DNA of 64,000 bases. Source: Tetradesmus obliquus. Taxonomy: Eukaryota; Chlorophyta; Chlorophyceae; Sphaeropleales; Scenedesmaceae. Within the stretch, counting starts at the first letter, position 1, and every line of letters starts with the position of its first letter. The DNA is taken from contig CP126194.1 in NCBI GenBank assembly GCA_030272155.1, forward strand, positions 992,001 to 1,056,000, read 5' to 3'. A program made the translations under genes and the position numbers. The notes beneath the pieces were generated by a model. The model saw nothing but the letters and a program-made list of their open reading frames with translations, ran no database searches and was not told where the DNA came from. Of this stretch, positions 1 through 42,677 are shown in pieces.

Positions 1-110
1 CCGTGCACTTTCAACGTGGTTGAGTACTGCGTCGTACTGCGTCGAATCAACCAGCATTGACATCAACGGGTCAACCTAGTTATTTCAACACTCTTGATCT
101 TTCTGACGAG

Positions 111-331
111 GTACTTCACGCACCAGGAGCTGCACAAGCTATCCTGCTTCTGTGACACTGCAGCTGCTCCCTCTGGTCATGCTGCTGCTTCCACCATCCC
201 TGACGCTGTATATGCGTTCCCGCTGTTGCTGCTGCTGCTGCTGCTGCCGCTGCTGCTGCTGCTGCTGCCAGCTACTTCACGCACCAGGAGCTGCATGAGC
301 CCTTCAAGTGGGACCCCGCAGCACCGCGCAC
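111..331 (+). repeat. two acceptor-side copies of the exon start at 467
   Basis: The first bases of the exon at 467 (CTACTTCACCCACCAAGAGC) recur as near-identical copies at about 111 and 272. The second copy extends through the codons for FKWDPAA. The copy at 272 keeps an acceptor-like CTGCTGCCAG in front. Neither copy continues in an open frame into the rest of the gene, so both look like non-functional duplicates lying in the upstream intron. Spacings are about 160 and 196 bp. Confidence 0.8.
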
Positions 332-466
332 CATGAGTTCTTTCGCTGCTTTCTTCCTTGCCCCTGTCATGGACCCTCGTATGTCGCTCAATCGTTGTCG
401 CTGCTTCTGCTGCTGCTGCTGCTGTTGTGCTTGGACTGCAATTGTGTTTGCTGCTGCCGCCCGTAG

Positions 467-1597
467 CTACTTCACCCACCAAGAGCTGCACGAGCTCTTC
501 AAATGGGACCCCGCAGCGCTGCGCACCAGCGAGACGCAGCAATTGCTCACTCAGCAGCACTCCCGCAGCGCTGAGCTGGCAGCAATCTCCAGCCATGTGG
601 CGTGGCTGGAGGCACACGCTCTCTGTGCAGGCACCAGTGAGCATGGCATGTTGTTTAGCCACCAGGACCCTGAAGGGAAGCACCTGCAGCTGGACCTTAA
701 ACACCTAAACCCAAACCACGTGCCAGGCTCTGCAGCAGCGGCAGCAGCAGGGTTAGGGATCAGTGGGTATGGCCGTGGAGGGTCCAGGCCGGTTGCAGGC
801 GCAGGAGCAGGAGCAGCAGGGCCTTCGGCGGCTGAGCTCAGCAACATGATGTCATCGCTGAACATTGCAAGCAGCAGCAACCGCGGTGGCGCTGCTGCTG
901 CTGCTGCTGCTGGCAACGGGGCAGCAGGCGGGAGTCCGCATCAGCAGCAGCAGCAGCAGCAATTGAAGCAGCAGCAGCAAGAGAGGCTGCAGGCGGAGGT
1001 GCAGCACCTGCAGTACCAGCTGGGCCGTGTGAGCACTGACCTGGCCACTGTGGGGCCGCGCCTGCCTGATGGCGGCAGCAAGGTGCGGCGCATGACGCAG
1101 AATGGTTTTGCTGCACAGTTGCGTGGCACAATTGCCGTGAACTGCATGTTGCATCGCTGCCTGTATGGCTGGTGAGCGTGCAGTGCGCAGCGCAGCTACT
1201 GTCGAGTATGCTGCATGGCTGCATGACTAGCTGGTGTTCCTGCTCAGTTGAGACTGCAGCAGTGCTGCTGAAAGTCACATGGTTCACTAGTGCAAGACGC
1301 ATCGTTTGCTTTCATCGCCATGTGGTGCCACGTGTGTTACAACAGGCTGCACCAACTCCCCCTTTTTGTGCATGTGTGCGCCTGTTGTCTGCTGCTGCAG
1401 CTGAAGGCCCGACAGCTGGAGCTGCAGGATGCACTGGGGGCAGCGCAGCAGCAGCTACAGCAGCTGCAACCCCAGCACCCTCAGCAGCAGCAGCAGCAGC
1501 AGCTCGGACAAGCAGCTGCTGCTGCAGCTGGAGTGGTTGCTGAGCCCAGGTCTCATGCTCTTGCTGACATCACCAACAGTGAGCACAGCTGGGATGC

Positions 1598-1630
<33 letters not shown>

Positions 1631-1736
1631 TGCTGCTATTTGCCAGCCGCTGAGGGCGCCTGCGTTAGATCTGCAACCAAGCAGTGCAGGTGGCAGCAGG
1701 CTAGCTGCAGGACACCAGCAGCCACAAGCAGGCAGT

Positions 1737-1771
<35 letters not shown>

Positions 1772-2312
1772 CTACGGCTTCCCTGGCAGCAGCCAGTGGC
1801 AGCAGCAAAGGGTGCCGCCGCCACCCCCACCCCCTAGGCCTCCCCAGCAGCAGCAGCAGCAGCAGCAGCGGTACCCGCCACTACCCCCACCGCCACAAGC
1901 TGCTCAGAGGCAGGAGGAGCGGCAGCTGCCACCACCACCACCACCACCTCCCCAACAGCAGCAGCAGCAGCAAGGGTTTAAGCAGAGCAGCAGCAGCAGT
2001 GGTAGCCGCAACAGCAGCAGCAGCGCCTCTCAAGCAGCAGAGACAGACAGGCAGGCCCCTCCTGGTGTGACAACCTTGGACGGGCGCGTGCCAACAATGT
2101 CGCAGCTGCAGCAGCGCAAGCACGTGCTGAAAAAAGCGCTGCAGGCTGGGGATAAACTGAAAGAGCAGCTGCGGCTGCAGGGGCAGCGGCTGCCGGCTGA
2201 CAAGCAGCAGCAGTGGGCTGCCATGTATGCTGAGTACAAGGAGATCAAGGCGGCTCTGGCACTGGCGCAGGCTCAGCAGCAGCAGCAGGTTGAAACGATT
2301 GACCTGACCTGA
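467..2312 (+). CDS. SNF2-family DNA-dependent ATPase, ERCC6L/CHR24-like, C-terminal part (5' end outside window)
   Basis: Two exons are visible, 467-1082 and 1401-2312, joined in phase 0 (donor GTGCGG, acceptor CTGCTGCAG). The first begins with YFTHQELHELFKWD and continues to HVAWLEAHALCAGTSEHGML. This matches the conserved segment that follows the helicase C-terminal lobe in ERCC6L/PICH and plant CHR24 (family pattern ...QELRELF...HIAYLQSLGIAGISDHDL). The ATPase lobes themselves would lie before base 1 and are not seen. The rest is low-complexity Ala/Gln/Pro sequence with long CAG-encoded Gln runs, then a helical basic stretch (QQRKHVLKKALQAGDKLKEQ) and the terminus ETIDLT. Family members translocate on DNA and act in chromatin or ultrafine-bridge processing; that role is inherited from the family, not shown here. 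The Gln/Pro tracts are unusual for the family. A TGTAA motif lies at 2331-2335. Confidence 0.65.
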
Positions 2313-3213
2313 GGGGCGGGGTTGCCCGTGTGTAATTTTCAGAATGTGAGGGGCAAGTTGTATCTGAGGAGGCACGATGGCGTTGATGCTATGGCTTGAT
2401 GGGTAACATGATTATTATGATGATCTGTGGAGGCGCCCGGAGTGGTATGGTGGGCATGCGTGTATGCCCGACAGAGTCTGGCCTGACAAGGTGTATCAAC
2501 AGTTGAAGCCATTTGAAGCTCCCCTGCCGCTTGATTCAGGTGGCCGGAGCCGCGTTCTAGCCAGCCAGTTGCATTTGAGTAGCCTCCAGTATCTATGGCA
2601 TGCAGTGTAGCAGTGCTGCATGCAACCCGCAGTGCAGGGCTGCTTATTCACAGCATCTGCCAGTTCAACTGGCCAGTGGCCACTGGCTGGCAGCCAGCAG
2701 TGTTGCAAAGCTATTCGGCAAGCATATAATCTGTTCGGAGTCTGCCCGAAGAACATGCACGTGATGCTGCTGACGTCAACACACACGTACGTCCACATAA
2801 GCCAGTCATCGATCCCTTGATGACGACCCGTGATGACGCCCCCGCCACTGTCAGAATCGCCCGCCACCGGGAGGAAGCTGGTGAAGCTAAGAGTATCCTT
2901 AGTCAAGATATGTATCAATGCTTACTGCTGGCTTCCAGCGTCTGCGCGTCCTATTCTTCATGAATCGCGCTCTAATTCGATGTCGGTGGCCAAAACAGTG
3001 CGCTTTCAGTGCATACAGAACGTACAAACAAATATAAGTTAAGATTTCTGATCAACATCAGCAGTCGCTGACCTGCGAGGCTCCGCTCTTATGCAAAAAA
3101 GCCGGCAAGCCTTGAAGCAGCTTGAAGGCAAACTTTAGAGCCTTTTCTTTGTCTGCTTCAGTGAATCCGAGCACCACTGAAGGGTGCAAGGCGACTTATT
3201 CAATACTATTACG
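2313..3213. other. intergenic region between the SNF2 and Cys-rich/LRR genes
   Basis: It holds the likely 3' end of the SNF2 gene (TGTAA at 2331) and the presumed promoter of the next gene. No convincing exon is seen. A perfect 16-bp palindrome, GCCAGTGG/CCACTGGC, lies at 2672-2687 inside a larger imperfect dyad. Confidence 0.6.
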
Positions 3214-3275
3214 ATGCACGTTGCAGCACTGTTTCTGCTGCTGTCCATGATTGCAGCGACAGCAGCAGCAGCAGC

Positions 3276-3309
<34 letters not shown>

Positions 3310-7639: not shown

Positions 7640-9135
7640 TTTAACCTTGAGTGAATGTCAGCTACATGTGTAGGTTGCACCGGGCATGGGGGTTTCAACG
7701 CGTTTCAGCGCGTTTCAGCGCTTTTCACCGCATCCGCACCACATCTTCACCGCAAGGCTGCCGGCCAATTATCCTGACTGCCTGCCTGCTTCATGCGTGT
7801 AACAGAGTTATAACAACACTAATAACTTGGAAGTAAACAGCTGGGCTGCAGGGAAGGTCAGCTGAAGGTCAGCTGCATGCATAGGATGCACCAGGCATGT
7901 GAGTTTCCGCGCGCTTCACCGCATTTTCACCGCATTTGCACCGCAAGGCTGTAGGCTGCTTATCCCAACTCCCTGCCTGCTGCTCGCGTGTTTTTGAGTT
8001 ATAACAACACCGACACATTGGAAATGAACATTTGGGCTGCAGAGAAGGTCAGCTGCATGCGTAGGATGCACCAGGCATGGGGGTTCAGCGCGCTTCACCG
8101 CATCTTCACCGCATCTTCACCGCATTCGGCACCGCAAGGCTGTAGGCTGGTGATGCCACCTCCCTGCCTGTTGCCCGCGTGTTACTGAGTTATAACAACA
8201 CTAATACCTCTGCAGTGAGCGTTTGGGCTGCAGAGAAGGTCAGCTGCATGCGTAGGATGCACCAGGCATGGGGGTTCAGCGCGCTTCACCGCATCTTCAC
8301 CGCATCTTCACCGCATTCGGCACCGCAAGGCTGTAGGCTGGTGATGCCACCTCTCTGCCTGTTGCCCGCGTGTTTTTGAGTTATAACAGCACTAATACCT
8401 CTGCAGTGAACGTTTGGGCTGCAGAGAAGGTCAGCTGCATGCGTAGGATGCACCAGGCATGGGGATTCAGCGCTCTTCACCGCATCTTCACCGCATCTTC
8501 ACCGCATTCGGCACCGCAAGGCTGTAGGCTGGTGATGCCACCTCCCTGCCTGTTGCCCGCGTGTTACTGAGTTATAACAACACTAATACCTCTGCAGTGA
8601 GCGTTTGGGCTGCAGAGAAGGTCAGCTGCATGCGTAGGATGCACCAGGCATGGGGGTTCAGCGCGCTTCACCGCATCTTCACCGCATCTTCACCGCATTC
8701 GGCACCGCAAGGCTGTAGGCTGGTTATGCCACCTCTCTGCCTGTTGCCCGCGTGTTTTTGAGTTATAACAACACTAATACCTCTGCAGTGAACGTTTGGG
8801 CTGCAGAGAAGGTCAGCTGCATGCGTAGGATGCACCAGGCATGGGGGTTCAGCGCGCTTCACCGCATCTTCACCGCATCTTCACCGCAAGGCTGTAGGCT
8901 GGTTGACCCAACTTCCTGCCTGCTTCCAGAGTGTTATTGATTCAATCAACACCATTACCTTTGAAGTGAACGTTTGGGCTGCAGGGAAGGTCAGCTGCAT
9001 GCGTAGGATGCACCAGGCATGTGAGTTTCAGCGCGCTTCGCCGCATCTTCACCGCATCTTGACCGCATTTTCAACGCCAGGCTGTAGGCTGGTTATCCCA
9101 ACTTCCTGCCTGCTGCCCGTGTGTCATTGAGTTAT
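7640..9135. repeat. 191-bp tandem satellite, about 8 units, alternating A/B higher-order pattern
   Basis: The landmark AAGGTCAGCTGCATG recurs at about 7865, 8045, 8236, 8427, 8618, 8809 and 8987, with exact 191-bp spacing in the central part. Units alternate between a type with GTGTTTTTGAGTTATAAC and a type with GTGTTACTGAGTTATAAC, giving A-B-A-B-A from 7988 on (382-bp higher-order unit). Each unit contains an internal run of the 11-12 bp motif CTTCACCGCAT. The outer units are shorter or longer and more diverged. No long reading frame survives across units because 191 is not a multiple of 3. Confidence 0.9.
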
Positions 9136-11985: not shown

Positions 11986-14266
11986 CTGGCTGCTCGCCAC
12001 TCTGCTGTCGCTTGAAAGCAGCGTCTGTGTCAGCAGAGTTGACCAAAAAGTAGCCAGCGGTGGTGTCTGCGCGGTGCAGGTCGTGAGGAGCAGCAGCACC
12101 ACCACTGACACCTTCTGCTGCTGCTGGGATCTTGGCAGCAACAGCACTAGCAGAACCCATGCTGGCCTTGCTGCTGCTGCTGCTGCTGCCACTTGCGCCT
12201 GAGCTGGGGCCTGCCCCCTCCTCTGCTGCCAGCAATGGCACCAACTCACTCGCTGCTTCTGCTGCATCTCGTGCCAACAGCGCATTGTCTGCTGGTGCAT
12301 TCCCACCTCCTGTTGGTGCTGCTCCATGAAACCCTGGAAAGGCCTTGCTTGACTCACTGCCTGCGGATGCCTGTGTGCCTGCTGCTCCATTGCTACCGCC
12401 ACCATCTCCTCCTGCTGCTGCTGCTGCATCATCCAGCTCTCCTGGTGCTGCCGACAGCCCTGCAGTGAGGCTGATGCTGTCGGTGCGCCGCCTGGCCAGG
12501 TCCAGGGGGGAGCCCAGCTGATCTAGCGCGGCCGCCGCCGCTGCCAGGTTGCTGCAGGGGCAGGCAGACATAACAGAAACTCAGAGCGTCAACAATAGGC
12601 TGTTTGCATTCCCATACAGATACACTCAGCTATCGCAGTGTTTGAATGCATGAATGACTACTGGATGTGTGCATTCCCAAAAGAAGAACTGCAGCTGGTG
12701 CAATTCAGGGATGCAGGAACATCCTGTGGTGCTCCTGCATGCAGTTCAGCACTTGGTGAGCTCTCCAGACTGTCTTCACCATACTACAAAAGTAACGAGG
12801 GAGTAGACACAGTGGAGCAGCACTGCTTTGTAGCGCTCCACCCACCTGTGCAACACCTCCTCTGAGGCGCTCGCCAGGGGCATGGTGCATGTTCAGATGC
12901 CAATCTCTGATGGGGGTCTCTTACACAGAGGTACAGGCGTCACCACAATCCCACCCACCTGTGCAAAACCTCCTCTGAGGCGCTTGCCAGGGGCACAGCC
13001 ACACCACCTAGCATTGCCAAGCTCTCAGCACCAACAGCAGCAGCAAGCCCAGCAGCCGCCTCCGCAGTAGCTACTGCTGCCGCTGCCTCTGCCGACTCCA
13101 AGCCTGCTGCTGCTGCCATTGCTGCTGCCGCATCTTGCGCCACGATCTCTACTGCAGCAGCCGCAGCAGCTAGCTCAGCTGCAGCAGCTGCTGCACCGTT
13201 TATCGGCTGCATTGCAGTTGAGTCAGGTGTGAGGCTCCCGCTTTCTGCTGAACCCTCTAGCACCGCAGGTAAGCCCACGAACCACGCTGGAGGTGTGACG
13301 CCTGCTGCTGCCGCTGCTGCTGCCACTGCTGCAGGACTCAGCGGACTGCTTTGCCCTTCCGCTGCTGCTGCTGCTGCTGCCGCTGCTGGCAAGATTGCAG
13401 AAAGTGGTTGCAGTGCATAGGGTGAGGATCCAGCGCGCTGCGGCTGCAGCGCCAGCTGTACCAGCAGCGGATCAAAGGTGTTTGAAAGCGCCATACCCTG
13501 CATCATCAACTCCTCTGCTGAACTCTCATACTGCCGACGAGCTGCTGCTGCTGCTGCTACTGCTGCTGCTGCTGAAGGGTCCAAGGTTGCCGCTGCAGGG
13601 GTGTGTGAGGAATTGCCGCCGTTGCTGCTGCTGCTGCTGAAGGCCACATCAGGCAGTGGCTCCGCTACTGCCACTCCAGAAGGAGCCATGATGGGAATCA
13701 CTAGCGGCAAATCACTTTCTGACAGCTCGAGCACTTCTGCTGCTGCTGGAGATGGTGTGGGATCCTCCTGCATTGCTGTCGCTACCGGCATTGCTGCTGC
13801 GGCTGCTGCTGCCGCTGCTGAGTCGGCCTCTGCAACTGCTGCTGCTCCACTGAACATAGCAGCCGCAGCCTCATTCATCATCGCTGCAGTGTCTGTGTCA
13901 CCTTCAGCAGCAGCTGCAGCCGCTGCATCTGCTGCTGCCGCTGCTGCATTGGCCAGCATTGCCTGTCCTGCAAAGGCCGGCATGCCAGCCAGTGCAGCAG
14001 CTGCAGAGGGGACTAGCATCTGTGGCACACCGCTGCTGCTGCTGCTGCCGACCATGCCAGAGGCTGGCAGCATTGCATCAGGCATGCCAGCCAATGCAGC
14101 AGCTGCAGAAGGGTCTAGCATCTGCTGTGTACCACTGCTGCCGCTGACATTGCCAGTTGCCGGCAGCAGCGTTGCCTGTGCAACATCTCCAGGTGCTGCT
14201 GCTGCTGCTGATCCAATGCTGACTGCCGGCACACCGTGCAGGGCAGCAGCAGCTGCAGGATCAGCC

Positions 14267-18959: not shown

Positions 18960-21700
18960 TGTCAGAAAAACTCGCTGCGTTTGGCCGCATGCAAACAGCA
19001 ATGCACCCATTCAGCGAAGGCGCTGCCGACGTTGATGCTGCGCTTGACGGCGCCTCATCATCATCAGCAGGGCCGCCTCTGAACGGACAAACTAACGAGG
19101 GCAGCAAGGCTGCCCCCCCAAACAGGTAGGCAACGACACCACATCACTCTCTAGACACACGTGCAGCATGTGCCAGAGTCGCAGCCAGGAAACCATCTTC
19201 CTGTGCAACGTATGTGGCAGTGTACCACATGAAGACAATTGTAGGAAACACAACTTCATCTCCAGCAGGGCTGCCTCTGCACTGCAATAGTCAGGCGACA
19301 CCGCTGTGGAGGCTAGCAGTTTGCCAATCTGGTAGCAATTCCCGCCGCACTTAAAGACAGACCAAAACAGCAATGCGTCCATGTAGGGGAGGCGCTGCTG
19401 GAGATGATGCTGCACTTCGTGTTACAACTTCACCTTCAGCAGGGCCGCCTCTGAAGGGGCGTGCAAATGACGGCAGCAAGGCTGCCCAAAACCAGGCAAG
19501 CAATAACAAAGCAACACCGCCTAAACACGCATCCAGCATGTGCCTGCCTCACAGCCGGAAAAAAACATGTGCATGTGCAACGTGTGTGGCAGTGCACCTC
19601 ATGAAGACAACCCATGAAGCAAACTTCATCATCAGCAGGCCTGCCTCTGCACCGCAATGGTCATGCAACACCGCAGTAGAAGGCTAGCAGTTTCCCAATC
19701 TGGTAGCAATTCCCGCCGAATTCAAAGACAAGCCTCAACAGCACTGCAGCCATTCAGAGGAGGCGCTGCTGGAGATGATGCTGCACTTCATCGTGATGAT
19801 GTTCCAAAAGTGTTCCAAAAGAGTTCCAGCAGTGTGATATCAAACAACAAAGCCATTCAGAGGAGGCACTGCTGAAGACGATGAGGCGAGTCAGCACGAT
19901 GATGTTCCAAAAGTGTCGCAAAAGCGTTCCAGAAGTGACGACAAGCAATGCAGCCATTCAGAGGAGGCGCTGCTGGAGATGATGGTGCGCTTAGACACAC
20001 GCCATCAAGACTCAGCAGGGCCAACCCTGCACGGGAACAGCAATCAAGGCAGCAAGGCTGTCTGGAAAAACAGGCACGCAACAACACAGCAGCGTTGTGC
20101 CAACACACATCCGTGTGCAATGGGCATTGCTGCCGGGGCTCGGAGATCCAGTGCAATGTGTGCCGCAGTATACAACATGAAGTCAAATGCTGCCTAAGTA
20201 CATTAGGTGCAGTTGATCTGCATGCCAAAAGCAGTGCACTCATTCAAAGAAGGCGCTGCTGAAGTTGATGCTGCGCTTGATGGCGCCCCACCACCATCAG
20301 CAGGGCTGCCTTTGAACGGGCATCATAATGAGGGCAGCAAGGCTGCCCAAAAACAGGCAAGCAATAACAACACCACACTGTCTAAACACGCATCCAGCAT
20401 GTGTCGGAGTTGCAGCCAGGGACCCATCTTCCTGTGCAACATGTGTGTGGCAGTGCACCGCATGAACACAGTTTCATGAGGGCACAACTTCAACTCCAGC
20501 ACGGCTGCCTGTGCACCACAACAGTCATGCACCGCAGTAGACACCGCTGTACAATGCCAGCAGCTTGCCAACTTGGTAGCACGCCCGCCGCATTTGAAAA
20601 CAGGCCAAAAACAGCACTGCAGCCATTCAGAGGAGGCGCTGCTGGAGATGATGGTGCGCATAAAGACGCGCCAGCATCAACCAGCAGGGCCACCCGACCG
20701 AAGAAGCCGCCCAGCACCCCACCACCAACACCACCATCACCGGTATCAAAACCAGCGCCCTACAGCCGCGGAGTAATCCGCCGCACAACTCATAACAAAA
20801 CCTGCTGCTCGTGCAGACAGGTCGACAGCAATGCACCCCTTCAAAGACGAAGCTACTGAATGTGAGGCTGTGCACAGCACGTGCTTTGCCGCGTACAGCT
20901 TCACATTTAGCAGGACCGCCTCTGAACAAAACAGAGTACGATTAATTACTAGCCACCGATGTGGTAGGCATGTAGCTTTATAAGATGATAGCACATCCTG
21001 CTTTGTGTGAAGACAGGCCAACAGCTATGCACTTCTTCAGAGACGGCGCTGCTGACGCAGATGCTGTGCGTGTCAGGCACATCCATCCATCGAAAGCAGG
21101 GCCGCCTCCAAAGAGGACACAATGTGACCAGCCAGGACGCCAGGACAACTGCCAACAAACAGGCTTGCAGCAACACAACAGACCTTGTAATATCAAAGGC
21201 TAGCAGCTTGCCAAGCTGGTAGACAGACTCGCTGTGTTGATTGTATTGACAACTTGTGACAACCTGCCTGAAGCAATATGTTGAAACAATGCACCCCTCA
21301 GGCAATGCACCCCTGCAGAGGAGACACTGCTGAAGCCGAGGCCGCGTTTGAAGCCGCGGCTTCTTTTTCAGCAGGGCCGCCTCTGAACCGGCACAGTTAT
21401 GAGGCTGCCTCTCCCCCTCAATAGTCATGCAACACTCCGGGAGAAGGCTAACAGATTGCCAACCTGCTGAAATTCCCGCGGCATTTGAAAACAGGCCAAA
21501 ACAGCCATGCACCCATTCTGAGGAGGCGCTGCTAGAGATTATGCTGCGCTTCATCACGATTATTTTCACAGTGTTAGAAAAGAGTTCTAAAAGTGTAGTA
21601 ACAAGCAACGCACCCATTCAGAGGCGGCCCTGCTGGAGAGGATGGTGCGCCTGCAGACGCTCTGCCTCATCCAGCAGGGCCGCCTCTGCACAGGAGCAGA
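18960..21700. repeat. array of foldback (inverted-repeat) units, about 10 hairpins, partly with ~370-bp period
   Basis: A left arm close to TTCAGAGGAGGCGCTGCTGG and a right arm close to CAGCAGGGCCGCCTCTGAA are reverse complements separated by about 30-40 bases. Pairs occur at about 19010-19085, 19381-19460, 19951-20030, 20241-20318, 20623-20700, 21034-21112, 21311-21392 and 21615-21690. Lone left arms lie at about 19752, 19854 and 21511. Several hairpins sit in a longer unit of about 370 bp (near 19010, 19381, 19745 and again 20241/20623). That unit also carries a recurring Cys-containing plus-strand stretch (FLCN-C----H pattern). No coding frame persists across units. Confidence 0.75.
20690..20790 (-). 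repeat. distant degraded copy of the exon end at 22316
   Basis: A segment with CAGCCGCGGAGTAATCCGCC, preceded by a CCACCACCAACACCACCATC-type run, matches part of the 22.3-kb exon (codons for ADYSAAGEG). It lies about 1.6 kb away, inside the hairpin array. Confidence 0.6.
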
Positions 21701-21909: not shown

Positions 21910-22190
21910 TGAATACATTGTGGAGGCGCCGCCCAGCATCCCACCACCACCACCACCACTATTATCACCACCATTAAGTAAAAGCCTCGCCAGCCGCGGA
22001 GTAATCCGCCAGCGTGATAACGTCATCCCCGACCAGCTCACCTGAATGCAGTGCAGAGGAGCCGCCCAGCATGGAGGCACCACTGTCACCAGCGTCACCA
22101 GCAGCAGCGCCCTCGCCAGCCGCGGAGTAATCCGCCAGCGTGATGACGTCATCCCCCACCAGCTCCCCAATGGCCAGCCGCCGCTCGCAA
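21910..22190 (-). repeat. two tandem donor-side copies of the exon end at 22316
   Basis: The exon's last part (GELVGDDVITLADYSAAGEG) recurs in order at about 22165-22050 and 22045-21950, each followed by a CATTCAGGTGAG-type AG/GT junction. The first copy keeps the frame through ML-GG-S; the last is truncated (AAGEAFT, then a stop). Confidence 0.85.
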
Positions 22191-22315
22191 TGGTGCCGCT
22201 TGAGCTATAAAGGCAAACGGCCATACACACCATGACTACCGCAGTACGTTTGATCACCACAAAGTGCAGCAGGGCCTGCGCTGCACCTACTGTTATCGAA
22301 TAAAAAACAACTCAC

Positions 22316-22783
22316 CAGCAATCCTTGTAGAAGGGAAACCCAGCATGCCAGCAGCATCACCAGCGTCACCAGTATCGCCAGCGCCCTCGCCAGCCGCGGA
22401 GTAATCCGCCAGCGTGATGACGTCATCCCCGACCAGCTCCCCAGTGGCCAGCCGCCGCCCCGCAATGGTCACCTTGCCCTTTGAGGGTGCTGACGTCAGC
22501 TCAGGGGGACTCTTGTAGCCAGTGACCAGGTGCTTTTGCTGCCTGCTACTGCTGCTGCTGTTGCTGCTGCTGCTGTGGTCTGCTGCATTGGGGGTGCTAA
22601 CAGTGGCTGTTGAGAGGAGCTCATAGTCCTGGGGTGCAGCAGCAGCAGCAGCAGCCTCTGGGGGTGGCCCGGCAGCAGCTGCAGCAGCAGCGGGCGTGAG
22701 GGCAGCGTCTGCTGCTGGTGCTGGTGCGGCGCTGTCGATGACCTGCTGCAGCTCACTGGCTGAGGGCAGCAGGGCTGCTGCTG

Positions 22784-24388: not shown

Positions 24389-27187
24389 ATGCAGCTCATG
24401 CGCAGCCAGCAGTGCCAGCGGCACTGCAACAGCAGCAGCAGCCGCACTCCGGCAGCAGCACCTAGAGCAGCAGCTGCGTCAGCACGCAGCAGGCAGCGCC
24501 AAACACCCGTGCCGCGAGTAGCAGCTCCTCAAGCACCGCAGCTACTCTCCAGCCTTGAAGAAAACGGCGTTGGCGCTGCTGGCACCACTGGGGTGCTGCT
24601 GGTCCAGTGCCCTGATGCCAAGGGTGTAGTTGCAGCGCTTGCGCAGCTGCTGTTTGGCTTCAACTGCAACATCCTGCAGAGCGATCAGTTCAGCGATGAG
24701 ACGATTGCGCCGAGCCGCTTCTTCCAGCGTATCCACTTTGACTTCAAGGATATTTCGGTGGGCACGGGCAACCTGGCAGTGCTGGAGACTGCCGTGGCTG
24801 ACCTGGCCAAGCGCTACCAGATGGACTGGAAGGTGGGTTGACTTGCATTTCATTGGATTTGAGTTGTTCTTTGAATATGTTTGAACAGGCAGCAGCGTTG
24901 CGGCTTGTGCTGAGGAATGTAAGAGCTTCCGTGCATGTTTAGCAGTTGCTACTACACCCTGCATGCAGATGGGCTGGAAGGTGCTGGCAGCTGCTTGCAA
25001 CAAGTGGGTTGGTTGACAGCAGCATTGTGGCACGTGCAACAGCGATATGTGTATGTGCATTCAATAACATTTGCTTCGAGCCTCTGCAGCAGCCTGGCGC
25101 AGCACTACCAGCTGTGCACAGGCAAGGCAATAGCAGCTGCATGCTGCAGCAGGCGCATGTAATGCGCAGGCTGCTTTCACTTTCACTGGCAACCACCAAG
25201 CAACATATGCAACACTCTTTTCCTCCTCTTTGTTCTACAATCCGCTTACTGTGTATGCCTAATCATCTATATGCATCCTTGCCTGTCCCCGCAGATCTCG
25301 TACCGCACGCAGCGCAAGCGCATGGCGCTGCTCGTCTCCAAGATGGACCACTGCCTCTTTGACCTGCTCATCCGGCAGCGCAGCGGCGAGCTGCATTGCG
25401 ATATTCCGGTCGTCATTTCAAACCATCCGGATCTAGGGCACGTGGCGGGCATGTTTGGCGTGGACTTTGAGCACCTGGGGTTCAGGCGGGACATTGATAA
25501 GGTGGCGGCAAAGCAGCAGCAGGAAGCAGCCATACAGCGGGTGAGTACCCGAGGAGATGTGACATAAGAGCTTGACTGAAGTGCCTGCCGTTGCATTGAT
25601 GCATGTGCTGCCTTTTGGGTGGATAAGGTGGCGGCCAAGCAGCAGCAGGAGGCGGCCATACAGCGGGTGAGTCAGTGCGCTAGGGCTTGGCTGCAGAGGT
25701 TGCAGTCGGTCTGACGCATGCGCTGCGTTTGGGGTGAATGCTCGTCAGTGGCGTGGCAGAAACGCAGCTTGAGCAGCATGAGTAGCAACTGGGAACAGCT
25801 TGCTTGCAACTTTTCAACCGCACTGGGTTCCAGCTGCTGAGGCGCTGCTGTTGCTGCTGCTGCTGCCTGCAGGTGCTTGAGGAGGCGAATGTGGACCTGA
25901 TAGTGCTGGCTAGGTGCGGCACAGATGCAGATGCAGACGCACACTCAGCAGCAGCAGCAGCAGCAGCAGGCTCAGAGGCAGCAGGCGCAGACGCAGACTC
26001 AGCAGCTGCAGCAGTTGTTGGTGGTTGTGAGGCTGCCGCTGAGGCCTGAGCAGCAGCTGCAGGCCGTGCTGTGTTGCGTCATGGGTCATGCATGCACCGC
26101 AGTCTGCAAGCAGGGCACTGCTTCGGCACGCAGCGTGTTCTGCATCTGCTTGCGCCTGATGTATGTCAAAGTAACCCCTCGTCTCCTTCTGCCTCTGGCG
26201 TTCTGCTGCTGCTGCTGCTGCTGCTGCTGCAGGTACATGCAGATCTTCAGTGAGGAGTTTTGTGAGAAGAACTGGGGCCGCACCATCAACATCCACCACT
26301 CCTTCCTGCCAGCATTCGAGGGAGCCAAGCCATACCACAGGTGCGGCCAGGGGGGCAGCAGCCGGCTATTCCACTGCTTGATGTGTACAGCAGCAGCTGC
26401 TGCCAGTACCAAGGCAGGTGCAGCCGCGGCGGCAGCAGGTGTTCGTGCAGGGGTGGTGCTGCAGCAAGGCGGTTGCGGCAACTGTGCTTGCATTGGTGCC
26501 AAGGAAGGCAGACAGCAGCAGGAGCAGCAGCTGCCAGCGGCTGCACACACTTCAGACTAGGCCCGCGACGGGCCTTGCCCTGCAAAGTGCATCGGTACAG
26601 ATGCGTCGACGCACATATATATTCGAAGTGTGTATTCATCCTCGCAGGGCGCACGAGCGTGGCGTGAAGATCATTGGCGCCACTGCGCATTACGCCACCA
26701 GCGAGCTGGACGCGGGGCCCATCATAGAGCAGGACATCACGCGCATCACACACAGGGACAGCGTGCAGGTGCGAATGTGGATGAGTGCACCTCTTGAATG
26801 TTTGTTGAAGCCAGAGGGCGGCTGGGGTACTGTCGTACAGCATGACACACAAGCATCACACACAGGGTGCAGGTGCGCATCATTTTATTTATAGTGATAT
26901 GTACTCTTATGCGCACATGTTGTGATTGCTGGCTGCAGAACATGCTGCGCAAGGCCCTCACGTTGGTCGCAACCTAGAGTGACTCAGCATACACTGACTT
27001 ACAGACGTAGTGAGCACAGGATCAACACCCTCGACTGACACATTGTGGCTGATTTGCTGTCCCGCAGGACATGGTGCGCAAGGGGCGTGACCTTGAGCGG
27101 CTGGTGCTGGCGCGTGCGGTGCGCTGGCACGTGAACGACCGCGTGCTGGTCACACCCACGGGGCGCACCGTGGTCTGGCAGGACTAG
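24389..27187 (+). CDS. purU: formyltetrahydrofolate deformylase (10-formyl-THF hydrolase), organellar
   Basis: Six exons join without phase conflict: 24389-24832, 25295-25540, 25873-25913, 26233-26340, 26648-26768, 27068-27187 (359 aa). Residues 1 to about 60 are Arg/Ser/Ala-rich, as in a mitochondrial or plastid transit peptide. An ACT domain follows ([20 protein letters not shown]...[11 protein letters not shown]), then the formyltransferase-fold hydrolase domain ([24 protein letters not shown]). The catalytic triad of the family is present: Asn263 and His265 in NIHHSFLP, and Asp301 in ELDAGPII. The enzyme hydrolyses 10-formyl-THF to formate and THF and balances one-carbon pools; in plants it supports photorespiration (established for the family). 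Introns 2 and 5 contain copies of the neighbouring exon ends. A candidate TGTAA lies at about 27842. Confidence 0.93.
25622..25674 (+). repeat. donor-side copy of PurU exon 2 end
   Basis: The last 47 bases of exon 2 (encoding [15 protein letters not shown]) plus GTGAGT recur 128 bp downstream in intron 2 with only a few changes. The sequence between the two donors has an in-frame stop soon after the first one, so using the second donor would truncate the protein. Confidence 0.9.
26849..26977 (+). repeat. copies of PurU exon 5 end and exon 6 start inside intron 5
   Basis: GCATCACACACAGGG followed by a GTGCAG/GTGCG donor at about 26853 repeats the exon 5 end at 26743 (offset 110 bp, with a 6-base deletion). 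CTGCAG followed by AACATGCTGCGCAAGG at 26939 repeats the exon 6 start GACATGGTGCGCAAGG at 27068 (offset 129 bp). The single intron therefore carries both a donor-side and an acceptor-side copy. Confidence 0.85.
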
Positions 27188-29252: not shown

Positions 29253-30494
29253 AGGGCGTGGTGCGCAGCGATGAGGAGTGGAAGGCGGCGCTGTCACCTG
29301 GGCAGTACTTCATCCTGCGGCAGGCAGGCACGGAGCTGCCTCGTAGCAGGTGGGTGCAAGAGCTTGCATCTGCTGCCGCCTACCCAGAAGCAGCATAGCA
29401 AATGAACTGCTGGAAGTCACATCAGTGGCGCCCATTTGATTTGTCACGACACCCAAGCTGAGGTTGCCATTGCCAGCTGAGCACATACCTTGATTTTGAT
29501 CAGATTCAGCTTTTGAGAAGAATGCAGCCTGGCTTGCTCAGCAAAGGATGGTAGATCTGCCCAGCAGCACACGCATCTCAATGCAGCTGAGAGTTGACTA
29601 ACAATTGCTGCTGCCACAACTGTTTGCCTCCCTGCAGCCCGCTGAACAACGAGAAGCGCCGCGGGCAGTTTGTGTGTGCGGGCTGCGGCACCCCGCTGTT
29701 CTCATCTGAGGCCAAGTTCAACAGCGGCACGGGATGGCCCTCCTTCTACGAGCCGCTTGACGGTGGGCTTAATTGTATATTGTTTGTTATACTGTTTTGT
29801 GTCTTTGAGTGTCTCAGCATGTGGCTGCTACAGACCTGGGCTGTGTGGGGTGACAGCGATGACTCTGTCGCCTGTCGTGATGAGGGACAGGTCTGTCGTT
29901 GCCAGGGCGCCTGCTCCTCTGTCAGCTGACTCGTTTACTTGCATGCTCCATGCTCACGCCAGGCACACACTGCCATGGCTTGACACCCAATGTATTTCAT
30001 CTTAGTCTGCACGGTGTGCAGCATCTGCTGAGCAGCTTCAACTTGCACCTTGCGCCCCCATCATGTCCACCGCCACTTTCTGCCCTGTGCCCCTGCTTTC
30101 CTCCATCACTTGCAGGTGTTGTGGTGGAGACAATGGACAGCAGCATATTCTTTAAGCCATGCCTCAAACCCTTGCTTCCTGCTATCTCCGCCCCGCCGCT
30201 CCGTTCACATCGCAGGTGTTGTTGTGACGATGGACGTTGGATTCATTTTCATGGCAAACCCTGAACCCTTGCTTCCTGCCTTCTCCGCCCCGCCTCTTCG
30301 GTCATTTTGCAGGCGCTGTGGTGGAGACGTCGGACAATAGCATCTTCTTCATGCCCCGCACCGAGGTGCGCTGCAAGTCCTGCGGGGGCCACCTGGGCCA
30401 CGTGTTTGACGACGGGCCCCCACCCACTGGCCTGCGCTACTGCATGAACGGCCTGGCGCTGGACTTCAAGCCTGCTGGCGCACAGACAGCTTGA
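28168..30494 (+). CDS. msrB: peptide methionine-R-sulfoxide reductase (MsrB), plastid and possibly thylakoid-lumen targeted
   Basis: Five exons in consistent phase: 28168-28322, 28755-28857, 29255-29349, 29638-29762, 30313-30494 (219 aa). Residues 1-51 are a Ser/Arg/Val-rich transit peptide. Residues 56-76 (SRRVLLGG...AAYA) form a twin-Arg, hydrophobic, AxA-ending segment typical of Tat-type lumenal signals. The MsrB fold follows ([33 protein letters not shown]), with two zinc Cys pairs (CAGC, CKSC) and catalytic Cys203 in [10 protein letters not shown]. The enzyme reduces Met-R-sulfoxide in proteins using thioredoxin-type donors. Intron 2 ends in about 90 bases of CTG repeat directly before the acceptor. 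Intron 4 holds two copies of the last exon's start. A TGTAA lies at 30750-30754. Confidence 0.93.
29162..29252 (+). repeat. (CTG)~30 run forming the 3' splice region of msrB intron 2
   Basis: An almost pure CTG repeat with one interruption (CTGTTG) runs up to the acceptor CTGCAG and exon 3 at 29255. It replaces an ordinary polypyrimidine tract. Confidence 0.9.
30111..30312 (+). repeat. two acceptor-side copies of the last msrB exon start
   Basis: The functional acceptor and exon start (TTTGCAG, then GCGCTGTGGTGGAGACGTCG at 30313) is preceded by copies at 30115 (GTGTTGTGGTGGAGACAATG, encoding [12 protein letters not shown]) and 30215 (GTGTTGTTGTGACGATGGAC). Spacings are 100 and 98 bp, and the CCTTGCTTCCTGC-CTCCGCCCCGCC linker is also repeated. 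Confidence 0.9.
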
Positions 30495-31893: not shown

Positions 31894-33970
31894 GGCGACA
31901 CAACGCGTCTTGCACGTAACCTGTAGACCAGCATAACATGGGAACCAATCTGTGCAGCTGCTGACACATCGGCACTCCAGCATGTCGTTATGTCTGTGTG
32001 CTCATCAGCAGTGATTGCGTAGAGCACAACCCTGAACTGGCAACACAAAAGCTGCCTACAGCCAGCGGGAAAGCTTATCAGTCCCTTCTGCCTTGCTTCC
32101 TGGCCGCCTGCCTGCCTGCCTGGCTGTTATAATGTTATGTTATGTGTCCCAGGTCGTGGCATGACGGGCAGCTGCCCACGCGCTACGCGTACCTGTCTGG
32201 TGCGCTGTGTGGCGTCACTGAGGGCGTGGCCTTTGCGCCCTTCCAAGTGATCAAGGTGAGGCGATGTTTGTGCTGGTCACACAGAGTATTGTGTGTGCTA
32301 CTGCAGGCAGAACAGCAACGGGCCCGCTGCATGATATGCACAGTGGCTCCTTGCAAACAGGAGGTGGCTGCATGCACTGTGGCATAGGCTGCAGTATGTC
32401 CTTATGCGCAGCAATGCAGCCCTGGAAATGCAGGTGCGGCTCATGGCCAAGGAGCACTCCACCAACCGCTACAGCAGCAGCCCAAACTGCATGCCTTGAA
32501 TACATAAAGTAACAGAGTGTGCTGCCCTGCAGGTGCGGTTGATGGCCGAGGAGCACCTGGGCCGCTACCGCGACAGCAGCTTGGATTGCCCATTGCTGTT
32601 TGTAATAAAACAAATAACTGTTATGATAACATATGCTGCCCTGCAGGTGCGGTTGATGGCCAAGGAGCACCTGGGCCGCTACCGCAACAGCAGCGACTGC
32701 CTCAAACAAGTGCTACAACAAGAAGGCCCCGCAGCCCTCTTCATAGGCCTCGCCCCCACACTGTACCGCAACTGCATTTGGAACTGCCTCTATTATGGGT
32801 CTATGCATGCGATCGACCAGCAGTTGCCGCAGCTTGAGAGTCATGGCGCGGCGGCTGCGCGGCAGCTGGCAATTGGCACGGCGGTGGGCGTGGCGGCGAC
32901 GTGCGCCAACGCGCCGTTTGACGTCGTGAAAAGCAGGTGCGGGGACTCATTGTGCTGCAATGTGTGGCATATATGCTGCTGCTTCGTGTGCGGTGGGCGT
33001 GGCGACGACGTGCGCTGAAGCGCCGTTTGACGTCGTGAAAAGCAGGTGGGGTGCGAGGGATGTGAGGTGCAGTATGCGTGGGGTTGTCGACTAATAGTGG
33101 TAGCTTATAGGCAGTCTGCATGCAAGGCAACGTGTGGCAGTCACAGACATTGCTGGATATTGTCATTGATGTGATATGCAGGCTCCAACACACGAATGCA
33201 TGTCTCCGTCCAGTATGATTCATCTGTCTCTGTGTGACTGCCGCAGGTTCCAGAGCCAGCTACCAGGCCAGGCCAAGTACACAAGCGTGCTGCAGTCGCT
33301 GCGCACCATTGCGGCTGAGGAGGGCCTGCCTGCGCTGTACCGCGGCTTTGTGCCCAAGGCGCTGCGCCTGGGGGTGGGGCAGAGCGTGGGGCTGGTCATG
33401 TTTGAGCAGGTGGGAGGAAGCATGAGGGCGGCTGCGGTGGTGTTGACAGAGAGATTGCAGTCAATTGCATGCACGCAGGCTATTGAAGCATCCTAGAAAG
33501 TCAGGTTTGGTGTTTTCCTAGAGCTAGGGTGATTGAGTAGAGTTAGGGTGATCTGGTAGGGTTGGGCGGAAGGGCAGAGCGTGGGGCTGGTCATGTTTGA
33601 GCAGGTGAGTGGGATGGGGTGCTTGAGTTGTAGAGTTATAGGCCATCTGCGTTTGTTGGGGTGCGGTGAGGTGGCCAGAGTGCTCAGCTGCTTTGTCGTG
33701 CTGGTGTGTGTCTGGAAATAAGCAGGGAGAGGCTGCACTTAACGCTCACACGGATCCCCACAACATGCCAGTGATGGTGCATGCTGCGCCAGAGACGTCA
33801 GCTTGTGGCAGCACCTGTGCGAACTACTTCTCACACGGTGCAATGCTGTGCCTGCTGCCATGCACCGTCATGTGCTGCGCTGGTTGCCCCTGCAGCTGCT
33901 GCGTGTGTTTGGCGTGAGCCAGAGCCAAGTGGAGCGGGAGTTCAGCGAAACCCTGGCCATGGAGGTCTAG
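31079..33970 (+). CDS. mitochondrial carrier (SLC25), 2-oxodicarboxylate-type
   Basis: Six exons in consistent phase: 31079-31259, 31701-31821, 32153-32255, 32647-32936, 33247-33409, 33896-33970 (310 aa, normal for SLC25). Three repeats carry the signature P-x-(D/E)-x-x-K: QPLEMLKTRFQI, APFQVIKVRL and APFDVVKSRFQ. Each is followed by a G-x-x-x-LYRG-type element (GGLRQLYRG, GLPALYRGFVPKALRLG). Signature details, especially PFDVVKSRFQ..PGQ.KY and GFVPKALRLG, resemble the oxoadipate/oxoglutarate carrier branch (SLC25A21/ODC). Such carriers exchange C5-C7 oxodicarboxylates across the inner mitochondrial membrane. Substrate assignment is inference; SLC25 family membership is firm. Introns 3, 4 and 5 and the 3' flank contain exon-end copies. 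Confidence 0.9.
32434..32600 (+). repeat. two acceptor-side copies of carrier exon 4 start
   Basis: The exon start GTGCGGTTGATGGCCAAGGA (32647) recurs at 32434 (GTGCGGCTCATGGCCAAGGA) and 32533 (GTGCGGTTGATGGCCGAGGA). Each is preceded by an acceptor-like TGCAG, and spacings are 99 and 114 bp. The copy at 32533 would be open for about 20 codons. Confidence 0.92.
32989..33050 (+). repeat. donor-side copy of carrier exon 4 end
   Basis: The segment encoding GVAATCANAPFDVVKSR plus donor recurs 109 bp downstream (CGCCGTTTGACGTCGTGAAA then AGCAG/GTGGGG), with a TGA replacing one codon. Confidence 0.92.
33565..33612 (+). repeat. donor-side copy of carrier exon 5 end
   Basis: The exon 5 end encoding GQSVGLVMFEQ plus donor (33377-33415) recurs identically at 33574-33606 followed by GTGAGT (offset 197 bp). 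The second donor is closer to consensus than the first (GTGGGA). Confidence 0.92.
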
Positions 33971-34002
33971 GTCTGGCAGCAGCAGCAGCAGCAGCAGGAG
34001 CG

Positions 34003-34082
34003 CTGTCAGCTGTTTGGCAGCACCTGAGAGCCAGAGCAAAGTGGAGCGCGAATTCAACGACGCACTGGCCATGGAGGTGTAG
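34003..34082 (+). repeat. copy of the terminal carrier exon after the stop codon
   Basis: The terminal exon segment (QVEREFSETLAMEV, stop at 33968-33970) recurs 112 bp downstream as KVEREFNDALAMEV followed by TAG at 34080-34082. Confidence 0.9.
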
Positions 34083-38709: not shown

Positions 38710-38986
38710 GGTGGCTGCCAGCACATTGTGCAGCTGAATATTTGATCCCATGTAGTGGTTGTTGTTTATTGTCTCTGCCTGGTAGCGCCCTGTTTCAGCT
38801 TATGATAAATCTCCGCAATTTTGATTTACGTTGTGTTCTTCGGAGATGGGTTTTTTTCTGGTGGCCAAGACGGACACAACCACCAGATCACATGTGTAAC
38901 AGTGCCAACTGTGTTGGCAAAGCCCTAGTCTGGTACTTCTGCTGCATCGGCCATGTTGAAGTGCGTGCAACTACTGCATCGCAAAG

Positions 38987-41083
38987 ATGAATGCGAAAGA
39001 AATGATTTCGCTTGCAAACGGCATGGATCTGCCACTCATTGGCCTGGGCACATTCAAGGCGCGCGGAGAGTCTGTAAAGCTAGCAGTCCGCACAGCTCTA
39101 CAGCAAGGCATCCGCCACATAGATACTGCTTCGATCTACAAGGTAATGAAATTGGCCACCTACGGCTGTTGACACACTAGTCCTCGGCAAACAGCACCAA
39201 CAGTAGCACGAGTAGCAGCAGCAGCAGCAGCAGCAGCCGGGGGCAGCAGCAGCAGGCAAACTGCTATGGAGTGTTTTACTGATACTGTTCACCAGCCCCT
39301 TTTTTGTCAAACCCGCAGAACGAGGAGGACATAGCAGCAGCGTTAAAAGAGCAGGGCGTATCCCGCCAAGATGTGTTCATCACGAGCAAGGTGTCGCCGT
39401 ATGAGCAGGGCACTGGGCAGGCCACACGGGCCTGCCAGCAGATACTGCAGCGGCTGCAGACAGACTACGTGGTGAGCAAAGATTAGCTGTTTACCCCTGC
39501 GGCCGTGACTCGCATGTCAGCACACTACACAGCAACAGCTGCTGTGTTCATACACACAGCACTCCTTGGCAGTGCTTGTTCAATGTGAAGTGCCATTGAG
39601 CACCAGCCAATCCCTGGAGAACGCCATTTGCTGCATCTTCGGCAGCAGTGTTAGGCAGCAGCGAAGCAAGCAGTGCCATGAGCACGCTGATGGGTGTTTT
39701 CTTGCAGGACTTGATGCTGGTGCACTGGCCTGGGGTGGCGCGCACCGACGCCGCCTCACCCCACAACGCTGAGATGAGGTGGCAGACATGGCAGGTGGAT
39801 CAAACGTAACATAAGTGACAGAGTTTGACTGCTGTAACCAGTTGTGCAGCTGCAGTGGCGCTGATGCTGCCTCACCCCTCAATGCTGCACAGCACCAGCA
39901 ACAGGCAAGTCACTTTGAGTTGCTCCAGCAGCCCTGCCTGGCCCTGCCTGCTTCCTCATACCTGGCTACTGCATACCTGCAGGTACTGCAGCAGCTGCAG
40001 CAGCACTGCCGCCCTGTCTGGGCACGACTCCTCTTTGTAGCTGCCGGTTCTATGCCGCTGCCACTGCTGCCACTGCTGCTGCTGCTGCTGCCTGCAGGTG
40101 TTGGAGCAGCTGCAGCAGCAGGGCAAGGCACGTGCCATAGGTGTCAGCAACTACAGCGCAAGCCACCTGCAGGAGCTGCTGACTCGTGCTGCAGTGAAGC
40201 CAGCAGTGAACCAGGTGCGTGCCTTGCGCGTGCTGGTGTGGGTTGTGCAGCAGTGAACCAGCAGTGAACCAGCAGTGAACCAGCAGTGAACCAGGTGCGT
40301 AGCAGCTGGCACGTGGACGTTTGCTGCTAGCAGCTGCAGCCAACCGCAGCAGCTGGGCAGAAGTAGCAGATGCGCCTTGTTGGTTTTTCAAGTCCTGTAA
40401 TGCATAGTTACTGCGTGTCATCTTATGATAAACCTGTGTGCTGCGCTGCTGTGCCGTACAGTTTGAGCTACACCCCCGCAGACAAGAAGTAGCACTGCGG
40501 CAGGCCTGTGCAGCAGCAGGCGTGGCTGTTGTGGCGTATGCCAGCCTAGGCTGCGGGGACCTGCTGCAGCAGCCTGTGGTGCGGCAGGTGGCTGCACGCA
40601 CAGGCAAGACAGAGGCACAGGTGGGCTACTGGTCATGCAGCAGTGCTGGCTGCATGCACGATGCATGTTTGATCAAACAGCTGGGCTGCAGGGGCTCTGG
40701 TAGCACTGGCAGCGTGCATGTTGCGTGCTGTGGCGATGGAAACTGCTGTCTCGTGCAAGTTCAAAAATGCAACTTTTTGAGATCCCTACGTGTTGTAACC
40801 CAGGACAGGTGTGATGCTTGGACAAGCAAGAGCAGGTCCCATGCTGGCTTGTGCCCTGTGCCGCAGTGAGTGGATTGCACGTGCTCCGCTGCCGCAGGTG
40901 CTGCTGCGCTGGGCGCTGCAGCAGGGCTGTGCAGTCATCCCCAAGTCGGTGCACCCGCAGTACATCCAGCAGTACAGCCCGCAGCAGCTGCTGAGCTGGC
41001 AGCTGGCTGATGCTGACGTGGCAGCGCTGAATGCACTGGAGGACGGCCACAAGTACTGCTGGGACGCATCCAACATCTTGTAG
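38987..41083 (+). CDS. aldo/keto reductase
   Basis: Six exons in phase: 38987-39142, 39319-39471, 39708-39794, 40098-40214, 40462-40620, 40898-41083 (285 aa). The TIM-barrel AKR signatures are present: [58 protein letters not shown] and [12 protein letters not shown]. The catalytic tetrad is Asp46, Tyr51, Lys76 and His109. These enzymes use NADPH to reduce carbonyls; the substrate cannot be read from the sequence, but overall form is close to 2,5-diketogluconate reductase-type members. It starts only 277 bp after the PRMT stop, with a TGTAA at 38894 in between. The donor of exon 3 (GTGGAT) is weak. Introns 3 and 4 hold exon-end copies. Confidence 0.92.
39855..40030 (+). repeat. donor-side copy of AKR exon 3 and acceptor-side copy of AKR exon 4 in intron 3
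   Basis: GTGGCGCTGATGCTGCCTCA at about 39855 repeats the exon 3 segment GTGGCGCGCACCGACGCCGC at about 39738 (offset about 117 bp, strongly diverged). CTGCAG then GTACTGCAGCAGCTGCAGCA at 39983 repeats the exon 4 start GTGTTGGAGCAGCTGCAGCA at 40098 (offset about 115 bp). Confidence 0.75.
40240..40300 (+). repeat. 12-bp repeats copied from AKR exon 4 end, ending in a second donor
   Basis: The exon 4 end CCAGCAGTGAACCAG/GTGCGT (40203-40220) is followed within the intron by four tandem copies of CAGCAGTGAACC, the last again running into CAG/GTGCGT at about 40294. Confidence 0.85.
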
Positions 41084-42677
41084 GAGCAGTGGGAGTTTGC
41101 TGCAGGGTTGTGGCGATAGGCTAGGCTAAAGGTGTGAATGACTGGTGTGAATGACGATTGCTGGTGAATCAAGAGTTTGCAGGCAATCGTAGGAGTCAAA
41201 GAGTCGTGGCTGCAACGCTGTAGCTATTGTCAGGCTGTGTTACAGGCTGCTGGTGTGAATGAAGGGTGGCTGGCAAACATCTTGTGCAGGAGCTGCTGCT
41301 GGTTCTTAAAGCATTGATACAGCCAGAAGCATGTGCAGCACTTGTGAGACACTCTAATGTCTGCACACAGCATTCCTTGTTGGCTGCTGTTGTTGCAGTG
41401 TTGCTTGTGAATGGCACATATGTCATATGGCATATGTCATGCATGAAGGACGCACGACGTGAAGCTGTCGGCGGGCTGTCTGTGCAAATGACAGTGTTCT
41501 ATTCATGCTCTATTGGGCAATTTACGTTTATGACACAATATTTGCGTCAGTTGCATGCAAGCAGGCTATAGATATGTGAAGCATCCAAGAGGTTGTGCTG
41601 AAGCATGTTAATGTCTCTAACCATTGCACTCTGTTTCCGGTGACGCCCACCAATTACAACTGCTTCACATGACCCCGTCATCATGATGTGTGCTGATCAG
41701 TTACGCCAATCTCACAGCTGGTGCACAAGGATTTCTAAGATCACTGTGCCCTGTACACTAGCTTACAGTACTGTACAGTGATCTTAGCAATCTGTCTGCA
41801 CCCTGGTGATGGCCAGCGCAGCAATTCGGATGAACTTATGCCCAGAGCATGGACTGTCAGTTTCCAACCTAGAGCTGAACACCAGTCCAACAGCTGGCAG
41901 CTACTTGGTATCCATTACAGCAGTACATCCACAGCTGCTCATTATGAAAGTCGTGTATTCCAACACCAACAACAACACCAGTACTACGGTGGTAGTACCA
42001 CAGTACAGGACGGACCTGCATCAGGCACTAGCCCAGCGACCCGATATACTGCTCATGAGGGAACACACTTTGCAAAGCACAATGCAACACAGTGCGTAGG
42101 CGCAATGTGCATGTGATGGGTCCGGTGCGTCGCTGCTGCTGTCGCTGCACGGTGCAGCCGCTGCATCAAATGCACTCCCTGTGCCTGCCGTAGTCCCCAA
42201 TCTCACAGCTAGTGCAAATAATCATCTGAATCATCTGACAGCTGGTGCAAATCATCATCTGACTGCGACAGCAGGTCCCCAGCTGCACAAGCTGCAAACA
42301 CCTACCCTCCCCACACACCCTCACTCCTACCCCCCCCCCCCCCTCCCCGGCTATACCCCACCCTTCACCCACCCACCCACCCTACCACCCCCCTTCCCCC
42401 TACCTCCCTTCTTACCCTGGTCTCCCACCCCCTTCCTTACCCCCTCCAAAGAAGCTGCACATGGCTACACCAGCGCCGCACAGCGCTCAACACATTTCAG
42501 ATAACCGTGTGAGGACGCAATTCTCCTGTTTTGTTCTACAACAAGCAATACCAGGGCATTAAAAAACGACGTTTTGCCTCAACAAGCAACTGTGGTGGCT
42601 CAGCCGCAGCCCCTCGAGGGTGAGCTAGCTCAGCATGCCGCCAGCTTCTTTTTCACGTACTTGACCCAGTCAGGCTT
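41084..42677. other. intergenic region with inverted repeats and a pyrimidine tract
   Basis: Near 41272 the sequence GCAAACATCTTGTGCAGGAG resembles the AKR gene end (CCAACATCTTGTAGGAGC at 41073), possibly another terminal-exon copy. A 13-bp inverted repeat lies at 41735-41787. CTCACAGCTGGTGCA-type short repeats recur at about 41710, 42202 and 42238. A C/T-rich tract lies at 42296-42450. No convincing gene is seen. Confidence 0.5.
42296..42450 (+). repeat. polypyrimidine (C-rich) tract with a C14 run
   Basis: About 150 bases are almost entirely C, T and scattered A, with a run of 14 C at about 42331-42344 and many CCC/CCCC blocks. The complementary strand is strongly G-rich. Confidence 0.85.

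Follow-up and report, generated by a model that had tools for sequence, protein, structure and literature searches.

Tandem copies of exon edges and their splice sites on the intron side of splice junctions in Tetradesmus obliquus sequence

Introner elements are additions to introns at many genome sites, tandem exon duplication with mutually exclusive splicing gives adjacent coding copies with synonymous differences, and the rice "patch-mediated" duplications are small tandem duplications from break repair. Here we analysed a 64-kb stretch of Tetradesmus obliquus (contig CP126194.1 of assembly GCA_030272155.1, positions 992,001 to 1,056,000; "the window", i.e. the whole stretch) in which exon edges, together with their splice sites, recur as tandem copies ("echoes") inside the adjoining introns. 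Two processes described in the literature resemble this arrangement. In intron gain by tandem genomic duplication, as described in the accessible portion of PMC3443670, an exonic AGGT is duplicated and supplies the donor and the acceptor of a new intron, and an RdRp of potato is given as a case of it in the available part of PMC4974935. Small tandem duplications from break repair are treated in the accessible part of PMC8355091. Among the full-text literature matches listed, no description of junction copies of this kind was found.

The sequence examined amounted to 314 kb: the window, which is part of contig 4 of an assembly of 104.66 Mb in 17 contigs, 200 kb of C1 (57.6% G+C) and 50 kb of C9. 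Gene models were taken from a simple gene finder, self-trained on the 314 kb without RNA, which settled at 451 introns with a median length of 223 bp and at the splice consensus CAG/GTGNG for donors and TGCAG/G for acceptors (the slash marks the junction). For each junction, a query of 45 exon bases and 8 intron bases was searched for within the adjoining 900 bases of the intron side. A first census returned 74 of 593 junctions, against 1.8 expected from a swapped-region control (0.30%). Seven junctions in satellite or repeat-rich regions of the window, all of them with matches, were then dropped, which left 67 of 586 junctions with an intron-side copy of the exon edge and splice site (donors 35/293, acceptors 32/293) at 36 separate loci. 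The simulation of the exon/intron conservation gap, the identity null from unrelated introns, the tests of exon GC and of intron gain, the looser codon test on 65 pairs with its list of offsets, and the array survey were made on the census before this drop, with some or all of the 7 junctions inside, and the codon-effect (34 and 27 loci), second-splice-site, CpG, copy-copy and spacer-family tests without them. The preliminary description had held that introns systematically carry such copies. The copies were indeed found where it had placed them, far above chance and beyond the window as well. The phenomenon is pervasive but not systematic in introns, since echoed junctions numbered 8/85 in the window, 29/394 in C1 and 30/107 in C9. 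The clustering of offsets that it had reported was also recovered, mostly near 110-150 bp with some offsets near double that. The nearest copy lay at 80-150 bp in 50 of 66 cases, with a median nearest offset of 126.5.

In the window, an ungapped scan returned 392 direct pairs no more than 1.5 kb apart, a count that takes in two satellites and a repeat-rich intron, vs 4 at 5.0-6.5 kb. A separate count of local direct pairs, from which both satellites, simple repeats and the region at 18.9-22 kb had been excluded beforehand, gave 122, of which 85 straddled a predicted junction, 13 were exon-exon, 13 exon-other and 11 non-exonic, whereas rotation of the labels predicted 41 junction pairs (SD 5.7, maximum 65 in 300 runs). 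A general scan yielded 19 inverted pairs at 30-300 bp, with simple repeats unfiltered, vs the 122 filtered direct pairs. A uniform test across region types likewise singled out the junctions (70/571) against deep exon (4/346) and intergenic sequence (5/649). Deep intron gave 17/345, and by coordinates 14 of these 17 matches sit in copies of echoed junctions, leaving 3/345. No inverted junction copy was found at 585 junctions, and for exon segments whose centre lay 100 bases into the exon none of 169 tests gave a copy. Exon-side copies were obtained at 13/585 junctions, which we read as arrays whose copies the gene model took as exons. A control with intron segments (22/532) was uninformative, since units covering the segment mostly cover the junction too. 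Judged by model ends, copies numbered 0/27 at start codons and 0/26 at stop codons, but these ends are poor, and two terminal-exon copies were seen directly (window 33916; C9 1524).

Such a preference for junctions, together with the absence of inverted copies and the narrow size range of the offsets, is what would be expected if duplication were directed to junctions, e.g. by transcription- or splicing-linked breaks that are repaired through staggered-end fill-in, and the copies then decayed neutrally. At C9 20022 an identical 84-bp duplication, read by eye, carries 5-bp direct repeats at its ends. A terminal repeat at the breakpoints was seen in that one identical case, older breakpoints being blurred. 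As in the duplications from break repair, the copies are direct, short and local, and small terminal repeats occur in this one fresh case; the accessible part of PMC8355091, however, makes no tie to exon edges or to protein-like constraint. Neutral decay yields neither the gap between exon and intron conservation nor the synonymous bias described below, and the terminal-exon copies at 33916 and C9 1524, read by eye, contain no splice site. Junction-directed duplication followed by neutral decay is unlikely as the whole explanation.

The copies begin at or before CAG plus the exon start, or finish with the exon end plus GT, and their exonic portion measures 11-81 bases (median 41.5, 40 pairs). 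What was duplicated in tandem is the exon edge together with the intron edge: similarity between spacers persists on the side that such duplication predicts. For donor-type copies it was -0.016 vs a null of -0.104 (SD 0.079, n=17) on the predicted side and -0.126 vs -0.113 on the wrong side, and for acceptor-type copies -0.035 vs -0.081 (SD 0.073, n=15), the wrong side being equal to its null; 12 of 44 pairs were untypable and left out. Intron-side identity exceeded the 95th percentile of unrelated introns (0.675) at 15 of 34 loci, where 1.7 were expected. At the other 19 the intron parts were no more alike than this threshold, which makes doubtful the earlier statement that the duplications look recent. 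Other parts of that picture were borne out: the copies straddle the boundary, the outer copy is the one joined to the exon body, and every copy lengthens the intron, as the suggestion of intron growth had implied.

Outside satellites the arrays reach 8 copies, and full tandem-repeat arrays were observed at C1 62911 (three copies) and C1 100157 (eight copies). The start of an ABC transporter exon stands six times consecutively at bases 134-1100 of C9 L022, where copies 2 and 5, as well as 4 and 6, have common exon variants and the spacers are far less alike. At bases 1524-1980 of the same piece a terminal exon occurs, as read by eye, in four tandem copies, each terminated by a stop. In C9 L025-L026 (36.9-46 kb of the 50-kb stretch) many exon edges of an SppA gene are echoed, and automatic gene finding puts false repeats into the SppA protein. 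SppA and carrier proteins without the extra copies align to solved SppA and carrier chains, so the copies are not needed. Our own gene finder mis-called echo copies as exons in the SppA and ABC genes. Differences between copies are allele-like, as they would be if the assembly had placed two alleles or reads side by side; regular arrays of up to 8 copies, a constant range of offsets and a like picture on three contigs render such an artefact barely credible.

An origin of the copies from a paralog elsewhere was rejected, since a search of the whole genome with the carrier echo stretch, made for this one locus and considering the best candidates only, matched only the stretch itself. Introner elements are comparable in that additions to introns occur here at many places of a green-algal-looking genome. 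They differ in that the spacers are not a shared family: only 10 short matches (18-27 bp) elsewhere in the 314 kb were found, from 4 of 34 loci, and the spacer as a mobile element was rejected because no sequence family is common to the loci in these 314 kb. GC-biased conversion was also tried and set aside, as GC of the 45 exon bases showed no clear difference (0.636 vs 0.617 for donors, 0.644 vs 0.634 for acceptors).

Tandem duplications at AG/GT-like junctions are plentiful, and the preliminary description had named them as a proposed route to intron gain, in which duplication of an AGGT-containing exon segment makes a new intron each time. An intron born in this way would be recognised by an upstream exon end equal to the intron end, or an intron start equal to the downstream exon start. 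Six of 450 introns carry this signature (1.0 expected), and by their coordinates no fewer than four of these (two in ABC genes, one carrier, one AKR) are echo copies mis-called as exons. Nor was AG before donors clearly commoner at echoed junctions (24/39 vs 147/258), or GT after acceptors (10/35 vs 68/261). The duplicated units hold an existing junction plus intron sequence, not exon alone, and they show no internal combination of acceptor and donor and no clear enrichment of AG/GT; for the latter reason, a splice that joins a point within one copy to the corresponding point of the following copy was rejected. The system thus shares with intron gain by tandem duplication the short duplicated segment with splice-site sequence, and differs from it in that an existing junction and its intron are duplicated and no new intron arises. 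Intron gain is largely refuted and very improbable as an account of the echoes.

The exon part of the copies is far better kept than the intron part, so that "degraded", the word first applied to them, is misleading. Of 19 junctions whose exon identity was at least 0.94, 74% had an intron identity of 0.675 or lower, whereas a neutral simulation with generous indels, run on a set of 72 junctions, gave 3-7%. Differences between exon and copy fell 18, 20 and 85 times on codon positions 1, 2 and 3. Scored singly, difference by difference, they comprised 86 synonymous and 37 non-synonymous changes and no stops at 34 of the 36 locus clusters, the other two lacking an ungapped stretch of 20 in which the junction was placed. 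The synonymous share of 70% compares with 39-46%, depending on transition bias, predicted for an inert copy beside a constrained exon (p 4e-8 or less). For copies labelled non-exonic, at 27 loci, the ratio was 74/37 (bootstrap of the synonymous share 57.5-76.0%); without 30 CpG-context transitions it was 61/32, and a looser set of 65 pairs gave 167/92 with 3 stops. Pairs of copies compared with one another, one pair per locus at 14 loci, yielded 46/34, vs a synonymous share of 28.5% for two inert copies. The exon-like part of the copies appears to be protein-constrained, which is unexpected for intron sequence. At the 34 loci, and at the 27 taken separately, the echoes appear to show the protein constraint of tandem exon duplication, which they resemble as neighbouring copies of coding sequence with synonymous differences; they differ from it in that the exon edge alone is copied and the copy has no second splice site.

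The synonymous bias (86/37 and 74/37) would be explained if the copies were alternative exons or splice sites in use, whose protein meaning is kept. Of 40 copies, 37 retain intact splice dinucleotides, although by a rough reckoning this is about what the divergence of the copies would lead one to expect. A splice score of at least 5 at the other edge was reached by 3 of 18 donor-type copies (chance 34%) and 2 of 16 acceptor-type copies (chance 19%), and mean edge scores were 2.27 vs 3.08 and -0.07 vs 1.20, respectively, for random intron. The offsets showed no excess of multiples of three (17, 29 and 19 of 65 with remainders 0, 1 and 2), and among 40 copies 7 had frameshifting gaps and 2 had in-frame gaps alone, a pattern expected if the copies are not themselves translated. 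Cassette or mutually exclusive exons were rejected because the copies do not have both an acceptor and a donor. The frameshifts and the missing second splice site speak against the copies being translated where they lie, yet the copies look as though coding had long been their role. Alternative exons are quite unlikely. As far as can be judged from sequence, with no other-edge splice site beyond chance and no internal AG/GT combination, the idea that echoes feed alternative splicing was not upheld.

Gene conversion between the exon edge and its copies would keep the exon parts alike, and selection would reach the copies by way of their being written back into the exon. It would account for an exon part conserved without its intron part, as in the array at C1 166387, where 36-base exon parts are nearly identical and the introns unrelated. 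By our reasoning, conversion alone should bring the synonymous share near 28%, and selection through write-back should be too weak at the divergence observed, except with a very large effective population size. The data demonstrated no conversion tract. We consider this explanation unlikely, if deserving of some weight.

Our preferred reading, which we hold tentatively and at somewhat less than an even chance, is that the echoes are junction-spanning arrays of fast turnover, whose copies had until recently served as functional exon edges in other haplotypes. The tandemly duplicated units, about 80-150 bp long, span a boundary between coding and non-coding sequence, nearly always a splice junction; the copy joined to the exon body would code, and the remaining copies would be spliced out with the intron. 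Unequal exchange would make the arrays grow and shrink, while intron parts would drift, often until they can no longer be aligned. As the simplest account, haplotypes in a highly diverse population would undergo unequal exchange that shifts functional exon edges into intronic positions, where decay would follow, and frameshifts and non-synonymous changes would record the inert time since the exchange. Exon parts would then be alike and differ mainly synonymously because most copies had been functional edges in another haplotype, and introns would fail to align because the exchange took place in a diverse population.

Several observations weigh against this reading. The analysis covered one haplotype, and the gene models are self-trained, without RNA. 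Some loci combine identical exon parts with unrelated introns, as at C1 83226 (0/47 exon differences, intron identity 0.57), so that introns must evolve much faster than synonymous sites. Conversely, in one array (C1 62911) copies 1 and 2 show 6 synonymous changes across 68 bases of exon and a single difference across 53 bases of intron. An earlier, looser codon test showed a weaker bias (99/74, 57%, 54 pairs, 3 stops). Duplications away from junctions are rare (intergenic 5/649, deep intron outside echo copies 3/345), which leaves junction-directed formation with some probability. Conversion with write-back selection and junction-directed duplication are compatible with each other and with haplotype exchange. 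A broader version appears possible but doubtful: junction-anchored tandem arrays, genome-wide, would form a standing reserve of near-functional exon edges, perhaps seeded by junction-directed duplication, whose copies cycle between functional and intronic states by unequal exchange, the intron carrying an amino-acid-level constraint that is not translated in place.

If the tandem-array interpretation is right, roughly one in nine of the junctions tested in the 314 kb has a spare duplicate of itself (C1 7%, C9 28%), introns enlarge in steps of about 120 bp, a protein-like signature is no longer proof of an exon, and gene finders will mis-call exons in this genome. The arrays would also offer a system for studying splice-site choice among duplicate sites and for asking whether selection on non-coding copies is maintained by tandem exchange.

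Within the window, the loci first pointed out were recovered with offsets of 80-356 bp, and Pfam families matched the carrier, MsrB (SelR), PurU-like (Formyl_trans_N) and aldo/keto reductase (AKR; Aldo_ket_red) genes. The mitochondrial-carrier gene (+ strand) is echoed at four edges. Its acceptor (32429..32694) has three copies of CAG plus exon start, with exon starts at 32434, 32533 and 32647, the last continuing into the exon. The donor with last exon base 32936 (32881..33051) has an intron copy 109 bp downstream (33045), the donor with last exon base 33409 (33377..33607) an identical 36-bp copy 195 bp downstream (33604), and the terminal exon with its stop codon (33916..34082) a copy 112 bp downstream that is likewise stop-terminated. 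At the MsrB acceptor (30110..30355, +) intron end and exon start recur twice upstream of the functional copy, at offsets of 97-100 and 197. The two PurU-like donors (+) fared differently: that with last exon base 25540 (25496..25672) has a clear copy 126 bp downstream, its spacer partly alignable, while the copy of that at 26768 (26722..26887) is gapped and weaker and lies about 104-111 bp away. The aldo/keto reductase gene (+) has a copy 115 bp upstream of exon start 40098 (39983..40127) and one 80 bp downstream of last exon base 40214 (40191..40300). In the gene labelled SNF2, exon start 467 (109..528, +) has two upstream copies at offsets 195 and 356, making three in all; the label itself was not borne out, as no Pfam family was found in the 102-residue piece tested, and the family is unconfirmed.

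The Ala-rich gene (- strand) has a donor copy 113 bp deeper in the intron (12838..12995). Further exon-edge copies in its 5' part (21985..22470), at offsets 126, 274 and 400, adjoin a repeat-rich intron and lie outside the corrected census. In-frame repeats, distinct from the junction echoes, also occur in this gene within one long open reading frame, and a diverged repeat whose period is close to 370 bp lies inside the modelled gene at 18987-20700. Elsewhere in the window, a satellite array of 6.5 copies of a 191-bp unit with an inner 11-bp repeat occupies 7914-9135, a 69-bp tandem array of 17 copies at 62478-63670 was mis-called as a gene by the gene finder and excluded from the counts, and a perfect (GT)98 run extends from 58701 to 58897.

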